A stretch of DNA of 64,000 bases from Saitoella complicata NRRL Y-17804 (taxonomy: Eukaryota > Ascomycota > Saitoellomycetes > Saitoellales > Saitoellaceae). The DNA is taken from NCBI RefSeq assembly GCF_001661265.1, contig NW_017567001.1, positions 186,001 through 250,000 on the forward strand, in the 5' to 3' direction. The notes below the pieces were generated by a model. That model was not told where the DNA came from and did no database searches. It saw only the letters and a list, made by a program, of their open reading frames with translations. Each line of letters opens with the position of its first letter. Position 1 is the stretch's first letter. This document shows, in pieces, positions 6,152 to 8,498 of the stretch. The translations under genes were made by a program, and so were the position numbers.

Positions 6152-8498
6152 ATGTCCGACGTCGCCGAACAGACCCCCGCCGTTGAGGCTCAGGCTCAGG
6201 AGCAGGTTGCTGCCACCTCCCCCAAGGTTGAGGAGGCCACTCCTACCCAGTCCGCTGAGGCGCCGGCCGCCCAGTCCTCGAGCGTTACCTCCCCCAGCGC
6301 TTCGCTTTACGTTGGTGAGCTCGAGCCCACCGTGACCGAGGCTATGCTCTTCGAGTTGTTCAACTCCATCGGTCCCGTCGCCTCCATCCGTGTCTGCAGG
6401 GATGCCGTTACCAGGAAGTCTTTGGGATATGCCTACGTCAACTATCACTCCACCGCTGATGGTAAGTCAAACTCCTTCTTTGTTTGTGTGTGGTGCATGC
6501 GGTCATGAGTCCTCGGGATGTATGCGCGTCGAAAGTGAAGACGGATGGGAGATATGTTCGACAAGTGCTCTTCGACAGCATTTATATCGCCTACGACGCT
6601 TTTCCGAGACTTTCGACGTGCATACACCCGTGAAGACTCGACGGTCGACATTTATTCCAGTGACGACGCTTCATGATGATAAGTATTGGTCCGTGTTTAA
6701 GATGTGGGATTAAGACCCCATTATACAAAAGACTACAGCCCGCCTAAGGGTTTCGCTATAAGCTGAACTTTGGCCTCGTCACTGGAGAAAGTGTGGACCG
6801 GAACATGTCACTTGTCACTTTGTTACGTGTTGTGCGTCATGAGCAAAGCTAACCCGTATTTCTTTAGGTGAGCGTGCTCTCGAGGAGCTCAACTACACTT
6901 TGATCAAGGGTCGTCCCTGCCGTATCATGTGGTCCCAGCGTGACCCTGCCCTCCGCAAGACCGGTGCCGGTAACGTCTTCATCAAGAACCTCGACGCCGC
7001 TATTGACAACAAGGCCCTCCATGACACATTCTCTGCTTTCGGTAACATCCTTTCCTGCAAGGTCGCCACCGACGAGATGGGCAACTCCAAGGGTTATGGT
7101 TTCGTTCACTACGAGGCCGCCGAGTCCGCTGAGAACGCCATCAAGCACGTTAACGGCATGTTGTTGAACGACAAGAAGGTCTTCGTCGGTCACCATGTCA
7201 GCAAGAAGGAGCGTCAGTCCAAGTTCGAGCAGATGAAGGCCAACTTCACCAACGTCTTCGTCAAGAACATCGACTCCGAGGCCAACGAGGAGGAGTTCGC
7301 CGCTTTGTTCGAGCCCTTCGGCAAGATCACCTCTTCGTCCTTGGCCAAGGATGCTGAGGGTAAGGCCCGTGGTTTCGGTTTCGTCAACTTCGAGTCTCAC
7401 GAGGAGGCCACCAAGGCCGTTGAGTCCCTCAACGACTCCGACTTCAAGGGCAAGAAGCTCTACGTCGGTCGTGCCCAGAAGAAGCATGAGCGTGAGGAGG
7501 AGCTCCGCCGCCAGTACGAGCAGGCTAAGATTGAGAAGATGAACAAGTACCAGGGTGTCAACCTCTTCATCAAGAACCTTGAGGACGACGTCGATGACGA
7601 GAAGCTCCGCCAGGAGTTCTCCGTCTACGGTAGCATCACGTCCGCCAAGGTCATGAAGGACGACAAGGAGAAGTCCAAGGGATTCGGATTCGTCTGCTTC
7701 TCTTCCCCCGATGAGGCTACCAAGGCTGTCACCGAGATGAACTCCCGCATGATCGGCACCAAGCCCCTCTACGTTGCCCTCGCGCAGCGCAAGGACGTCC
7801 GCCGCCAGCAGCTCGAGGCCCAGATTGCTGCTCGCAACCAGATCCGCATGCAGCAGCAGGCTGCCGCTGCCGGTATGGGTCAGGGACCTTACCCCGGACC
7901 TAACGGTGTTCCCCCCATGTTCTACGGTCAGGCCCCGCCTCCTCAGTTCGGCCCGATGGGCGGTATGCCCCGTGGTCCCTTCCCTCCCCAGGGAATGCCT
8001 CGTGGTCCCCGCTGGCAGAACGGTGCCCCCATGCCCCCCATGCCCTACGGCATGCCTCCTCCCCAGTTCGGTGGATACCCTCCCCGCGGTAACCAGCGTG
8101 GCCCCATGCCCGGTATGCCCCGTGGTGGACCCATGGGTGGCCCCCGCGGTCCTTACCGCAACAACGAGCCCCAGCAGCCCGCTGAGATCTCCCAGGCTCC
8201 CAAGATCACCGAGGAGTCCCTCGCCGGTCTCCCCATCGAGCAGCAGAAGCAGGTTCTCGGTGAGGCTATGTACCCCAAGATCGCCGCCCAGCAGCCTGAG
8301 CTCGCTGGTAAGATCACTGGTATGTTGTTGGACATGGAGATCCCCGAGTTGGTTTCCCTCGTCGATGATGACGCTCAGTTGAACGCTAAGGTTGAGGAGG
8401 CTTTGACTGTCTTGAAGGAGTACCAGGCCCAGCAGGACCCTACTGAGGCCCCCGCCGTTGAGGGTGAGGAGGCTGCTGAGGAGAAGACCGAGGCTTAA
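6152..8498 (+). CDS. PAB1: Polyadenylate-binding protein PAB1
   Basis: Two exons, 6152-6461 and 6868-8498, give 646 residues. The intron has donor GTAAGT, branch GCTAAC at 6849-6854 and acceptor TTTAG, and splicing joins [12 protein letters not shown] in RRM1. The protein has a short acidic/Ala-rich N-terminus, four RRMs (about 51-128, 139-215, 232-308, 335-410) with RNP1 motifs such as KGYGFVHY and KGFGFVCF, a Met/Pro/Gly-rich linker, and a C-terminal PABC (MLLE) domain at about 560-630. It binds mRNA poly(A) tails in cytoplasm and nucleus and links them to translation initiation and deadenylation through PABC partners. Codons are strongly C-ending, as in highly expressed fungal genes. The intron, 406 nt, is far longer than others in the window and holds a snoRNA candidate. 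The A-rich leader suggests autoregulation. Confidence 0.97.
6507..6639 (+). other. Long stem-loop in PAB1 intron
   Basis: Positions 6519-6536 (TGTATGCGCGTCGAAAGT) pair with 6609-6626 over 18 bp with a single G-U pair. The helix continues outward past one bulged A with CGGG (6514-6517) and CCCG (6627-6630), and then GAGTC (6507-6511) and GACTC (6635-6639). Inside the loop, GATAT/ATATC and TGCT/AGCA can nest. The element lies entirely within the intron, upstream of the snoRNA candidate. Its role is unknown. Confidence 0.7.
6660..6782 (+). ncRNA. Box C/D snoRNA candidate, U18 (snR18) family, intronic in PAB1
   Basis: A C box ATGATGA (6673-6679) and D box CTGA (6763-6766) are enclosed by a perfect 7-bp stem, GTGACGA (6660-6666) with TCGTCAC (6776-6782). 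Just after the C box, TTGGTCCGTGTTT (6686-6698) is complementary over 13 nt to the conserved LSU rRNA stretch AAACACGGACCAA, which is the U18 guide element. Upstream of the D box, GGTTTCGCTA (6749-6758) is complementary over 10 nt to the conserved LSU stretch UAGCGAAACC, and its last base is the fifth before the D box, as the 2'-O-methylation rule requires. The D' box after the first guide is degenerate. The rRNA sequences are recalled from other species, as this genome's rDNA is not in the window. Yeast U18 lies in the EFB1 intron and vertebrate U18 in RPL4 introns, so residence in an intron of a translation gene fits. Confidence 0.82.

Follow-up and report, generated by a model that had tools for sequence, protein, structure and literature searches.

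A probable U18-type box C/D snoRNA in the PAB1 intron of Saitoella complicata

The single intron of PAB1 in Saitoella complicata very probably carries a box C/D snoRNA of the U18 type, judging by its sequence. The boxes, the match of a guide to LSU rRNA, the register of that guide, a stem and the position within the intron are observed directly, and the snoRNA identity is well supported by the boxes, the guide in the +5 register, the long external stem and the unusually long intron. The original prediction had placed a U18-family snoRNA in this intron, and boxes, guide and stem agree with it.

Results

PAB1 occupies positions 6152-8498 on the plus strand of the window, the whole stretch of 64,000 nucleotides that we analysed, and has one intron at 6462-6867. 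The gene comprises the following features:

6152-6461, plus strand: PAB1 exon 1, from the joined reading frame and the match to chain 6r5k_D
6462-6867, plus strand: PAB1 intron, 406 nt, GTAAGT...GCTAAC...TTTAG, putative host of the snoRNA, from stops in all frames and folding
6516-6629, plus strand: upstream hairpin in the intron, arms 6516-6536 and 6609-6629, 21 nt, 90% complementary, from arm search and folding
6848-6853, plus strand: branch-site-like GCTAAC, ending 14 nt before the intron end, from the sequence
6868-8498, plus strand: PAB1 exon 2, from the joined reading frame and the PABP-1234 score of 6900-8498

Splicing at 6461/6868 yields a protein of 646 aa whose sole stop is terminal. 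A 433-aa part of this product matches PDB chain 6r5k_D, a polyadenylate-binding protein, with an E-value of 2.7e-171, and against PABP-1234, for which the cut-off is 497.1 bits, the translated stretch 6900-8498 reaches 569.3 bits; the open frame and this score bear out PAB1 as the host that had been proposed. The intervening segment contains 3, 6 and 7 stop codons in its three frames. It has GT-AG ends and a branch-like site, GCTAAC, which we take to be the branch-site motif, and the frame is open once the segment is removed, as for a spliceosomal intron. Its 406 nt compare with introns of 52 and 48 nt, and uncertain ones of 78 and 70 nt, in one neighbouring gene model (minus strand, 12.7-13.9 kb); the comparison, which speaks for a U18-type snoRNA as the intron's cargo, is with a single gene and not a window-wide survey.

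The 5' leader of PAB1 contains A-rich tracts at 6039-6052 and 6117-6134. The mRNAs of poly(A)-binding proteins carry an A-rich autoregulatory element, of which these tracts are reminiscent.

Within the intron, the candidate snoRNA and its surroundings have these parts:

6642-6669, plus strand: long external stem, 5' side, with TTCCAGTGACGA at 6655-6666 as its core, from complementarity
6673-6679, plus strand: C box ATGATGA, which fits RUGAUGA
6686-6698, plus strand: D' guide TTGGTCCGTGTTT to LSU rRNA AAACACGGACCAA, with T6694 opposite the A equivalent to yeast A649
6699-6702, plus strand: D' box AAGA, degenerate, placed by register (yeast U18 consensus AUGA)
6709-6715, plus strand: tentative candidate C' box ATTAAGA, agreeing with RUGAUGA at 5/7 positions by eye
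6749-6758, plus strand: GGTTTCGCTA, proposed as a D guide through its complementarity to LSU UAGCGAAACC; it probably does not work as one
6763-6766, plus strand: D box CTGA, from the sequence
6773-6800, plus strand: long external stem, 3' side, with TCGTCACTGGAG at 6776-6787 as its core, from complementarity

The C box, the guide TTGGTCCGTGTTT, the rRNA match GGTTTCGCTA and the D box all lie where the original prediction had put them. A RUGAUGA-type C box and a CUGA D box stand near the ends, as in box C/D snoRNAs, and the order of C box, guide, D' box in +5 register and D box is correct, which argues for the U18 reading. Counting back from D', T6694 is the fifth base, and it lies opposite the A of AAACACGG in LSU rRNA, an A that is presumably A649 in yeast numbering; complementarity to the LSU around this A in the +5 register is the mark of the U18/SNORD18 D' guide. 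The duplex of guide and LSU rRNA has a predicted energy of -19.9 kcal/mol, and the 11-mer GGTCCGTGTTT occurs once in the window, counting both strands, at this guide. Two of the 13 guide bases presumably pair with the last AA of the LSU target. The other 11 are matched on primer 3PV26, written for another species' rRNA, that of the ascomycete Phialophora verrucosa (PMC3112068, in excerpt), and this printed ascomycete target likewise favors a U18-type guide. Complementarity continues past the guide into the rRNA immediately upstream of the target, giving 19 pairs from 6688 on with one unpaired base per strand (-27.7 kcal/mol); we place little weight on this extension because 179 of 5000 shuffled tails do equally well.

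The second pair of boxes is the less convincing part of the candidate: D' is AAGA, although in register, and the C' candidate agrees at just 5/7 positions. Both points count against the U18 reading as it stands, and both could reflect decay if the intron held a duplicate, working or decaying, of another U18 gene in the genome. A second copy would be compatible with the U18 identity and has a precedent in Neurospora crassa, where two U18 genes lie on different chromosomes (PMC2780460, in excerpt). The intact C and D boxes, the long guide and the 12-bp stem speak against a decaying copy, and we consider duplication rather unlikely, though the most plausible of the alternatives weighed here.

The stem separates the U18-type candidate from other box pairs in the window. 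It had been described as a perfect 7-bp terminal stem (6660-6666/6776-6782); these pairs are correct but understate it, as 12 pairs run uninterrupted from 6655-6666 to 6776-6787 (11 Watson-Crick and one G-U) within arms of 28 nt that are 82% complementary (6642-6669/6773-6800). Because it is offset from the C and D boxes by 6 and 9 nt, we class it as an external stem and not as the usual short terminal one. Its 12 bp bring the C and D boxes together, as expected of a box C/D snoRNA. To gauge chance, we took all RTGATGA...CTGA pairs spanning 50-130 nt and counted uninterrupted Watson-Crick pairs located no more than 25 nt from the boxes. The window contains 23 such C-D pairs (14 on the plus strand, 9 on the minus strand), and the one in the PAB1 intron, with 11 bp, is the only one whose stem has at least 7 bp. 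When the window was dinucleotide-shuffled 60 times and both strands were scanned, stems of at least 7 bp appeared in 11 of 575 C-D pairs and stems of at least 11 bp in none (0/575). Both counts support the U18 reading.

An Rfam comparison had been suggested as a check. In a local search of a 601-nt region, SNORD18 (RF00093) was the best local family, aligned over model positions 1-71 with 23 bits and an E-value of 0.076. It was the better of the two matches listed, both below gathering; the other, TtnuCD18, a C/D family of Tetrahymena, aligned over the same guide with 21.2 bits (E 2.4, gathering 55). That the better match is SNORD18 and that the other is also a C/D family favors a U18-type snoRNA. 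However, 23 bits falls short of the RF00093 gathering score of 41, which is a curated cut-off on a 71-position model and no biological definition; we use the name "U18-type" because this score is missed. Searched over the 64-kb window, SNORD18 has an E-value of 8.1, and six of the nine other below-gathering, chance-level matches have lower E-values, which also weighs against the identification. Rfam alone would not name the putative gene; what identifies it is the guide, its register, the boxes and the stem.

An alternative explanation is that the intron contains no snoRNA and is simply structured, with stems joining the splice signals and with boxes and guide that arose by chance. The missed gathering score fits this explanation, as does the folding of the whole intron, which is strong (z = -4.42; 0/200 shuffles as good) and includes an upstream hairpin devoid of snoRNA features. 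The hairpin region 6510-6640 has a folding energy of -54.3 kcal/mol (z = -5.91; 0/300 shuffles as good), and the Rfam search of the 601-nt region listed no family there; it might, speculatively, shorten the intron effectively or offer an entry site for an endonuclease. Against chance stands the convergence of guide, register, boxes and stem at one place, with the stem alone absent from all 575 shuffled C-D pairs. We therefore judge this explanation most improbable, and slightly less so than we otherwise would because of the whole-window Rfam result. The folding of the parts is consistent with the U18-type snoRNA: the fold of the stem region 6640-6802 is far more stable than those of its shuffled versions (z = -5.26; 0/300 as good), which favors it, and the core from C to D folds no better than chance (z = 0.1; 166/300 shuffles as good). 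The latter could be held against it, but the cores of C/D RNAs are expected to fold no better than shuffles.

The original prediction credited the snoRNA with two rRNA guides. Both sequence matches are real; the second, however, is close to chance and mismatched at +4. In the D-side duplex, ten Watson-Crick pairs run from +5 to +14 with A6758 exactly at +5, and +3 is paired, but +4 and +2 are mismatched, so that contiguous pairing starts at +5 and does not extend to both sides of the target. Working C/D duplexes need pairs on both sides, with a core of 9 bp from +3 to +11, and the D-side arm departs from this rule. Its predicted energy is -16.8 kcal/mol against -19.9 kcal/mol for the D' guide, and the duplex is therefore not weak in itself. 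When a shuffled arm was compared with a random 5.2-kb rRNA, 12 of 400 trials gave a 10-nt match that abutted +2 to +5, and 35 of 400 gave one of that length at any position of the 35-nt arm. If the arm did guide, alongside the D' guide and compatibly with the U18 identity, the U of CUAGCG in LSU rRNA would be methylated. The pairs, the position of A6758 and the energy are in favor of this, as is the presence of the target UAGCGAAACC in fungal and universal primers (PMC3112068, PMC7160944, both in excerpt). In addition to the mismatches and the chance rates, known U18 genes argue against it: both Neurospora U18 genes are listed with the D' target alone (PMC2780460, in excerpt), and the targets given for Trichophyton U18 in the excerpt of PMC3890542 are 25S Am651, Gm654 and 18S Am1159. 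A guiding D-side arm thus appears unlikely, and the arm is most likely no working guide. The combined scenario, a relocation of U18 to PAB1 in this lineage together with the acquisition of a genuine second guide directed at the U of CUAGCG, seems to us very unlikely; were it true, it would couple to PAB1 transcription an LSU methylation that is absent from other fungi.

Elsewhere in the window, 11274-11454 is probably an H/ACA snoRNA, snR35 (Rfam S_pombe_snR35, 43.2 bits, gathering 35), in a stretch without an ORF of at least 250 aa. The window also contains three genes for tRNA-Leu(AAG), each 98 nt long and all with the same Rfam score, at 14111-14208, 19707-19804 and 61974-62071. A match to the TPP riboswitch at 56574-56673 (23.7 bits, below the gathering score of 54.3) is probably due to chance; the ORF downstream of it resembles a zinc-cluster regulator by eye.

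Discussion

From the features described above we infer that the snoRNA is expressed, processed, bound by proteins and active in methylation. The mature RNA would span approximately 6668-6771. The intron would be spliced and then debranched or cut, the external stem would keep C box and D box close to each other during the assembly of Snu13, Nop56, Nop58 and Nop1, and nucleases would trim the ends as far as the particle. By pairing with LSU rRNA, the guide would direct 2'-O-methylation at the A that corresponds to yeast A649. Long external stems aid the assembly of intronic snoRNAs in yeast. The neighbouring C650 may also be methylated, because the D' box lacks an initial C, as in yeast U18, and by analogy AAGA may act like the yeast AUGA in two-nucleotide methylation.

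Yeast U18 (snR18) shares with the candidate the D' guide to LSU A649, its register, the D' box without an initial C and the location in an intron; it differs in its host, which we take to be the EFB1 intron, and in its AUGA, where the candidate has PAB1, AAGA and no clear C' box. The yeast RNA, with its D' AUGA, methylates two neighbouring nucleotides, which is ascribed to overlapping D' boxes (PMC5389607, in excerpt), and Nop1 and the RNase III Rnt1 take part in its release from the intron (cited in PMC13183374, in excerpt). Intronic U18 RNAs are also described for three filamentous fungi, which favors the U18 reading. In N. crassa, CD46A and CD46B are intronic, like the candidate, and direct 26S Am635 through a D' guide to the same A, with guide duplexes of 11 and 12 bp; they differ in being 89 nt long each and in forming two copies, whereas the candidate measures 94 nt from C box to D box (PMC2780460, in excerpt). 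TRnc_1157 of Trichophyton rubrum (SNORD18/U18, 95 nt) resembles the candidate in being intronic and in its predicted target, 25S Am651 (PMC3890542, in excerpt). The intronic U18 of F. graminearum falls in a debranching mutant and depends on lariat debranching (PMC9606315, in excerpt).

Intronic U18 is thus ordinary in fungi, and only its PAB1 address is notable. Over the course of fungal evolution, snoRNAs carried in introns change their locations (PMC3596301 and PMC8476143, in excerpt). The original prediction conjectured that U18 has shifted between introns of translation genes, with PAB1 as a further example. The word 'pab1' is absent from the U18 literature in PMC2780460, PMC9606315, PMC5033589, PMC3511168, PMC3890542 and PMC5389607, and PAB1 is nowhere named as a U18 host in the literature covered. 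This coverage does not extend to the main fungal snoRNA survey (PMC5824354), the Aspergillus ncRNA paper PMC2377427 or two papers containing both 'u18' and 'pab1' (PMC4687934, PMC3793857), and the absence is no proof of novelty. A scan with the PAB1 protein gave pattern matches in 17 stretches of viral_contigs and 59 of genome_contigs, of which none were confirmed as PAB1 relatives (0/17 and 0/59), a result that counts against the U18 reading. The U18 pattern itself matched 24 stretches of viral_contigs, about the number estimated for chance with 17 fixed bases, a variable gap and a large collection, and a search for relatives with an LSU pattern gave no matches.

PAB1 is a probable additional host for a snoRNA reported to be intronic in other filamentous fungi. 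Such hosting would tie the transcription of a translation factor to the methylation of rRNA. The understanding of U18 itself is unchanged, and the PAB1 intron would provide a clean case of a long external stem in the release of an intronic snoRNA.
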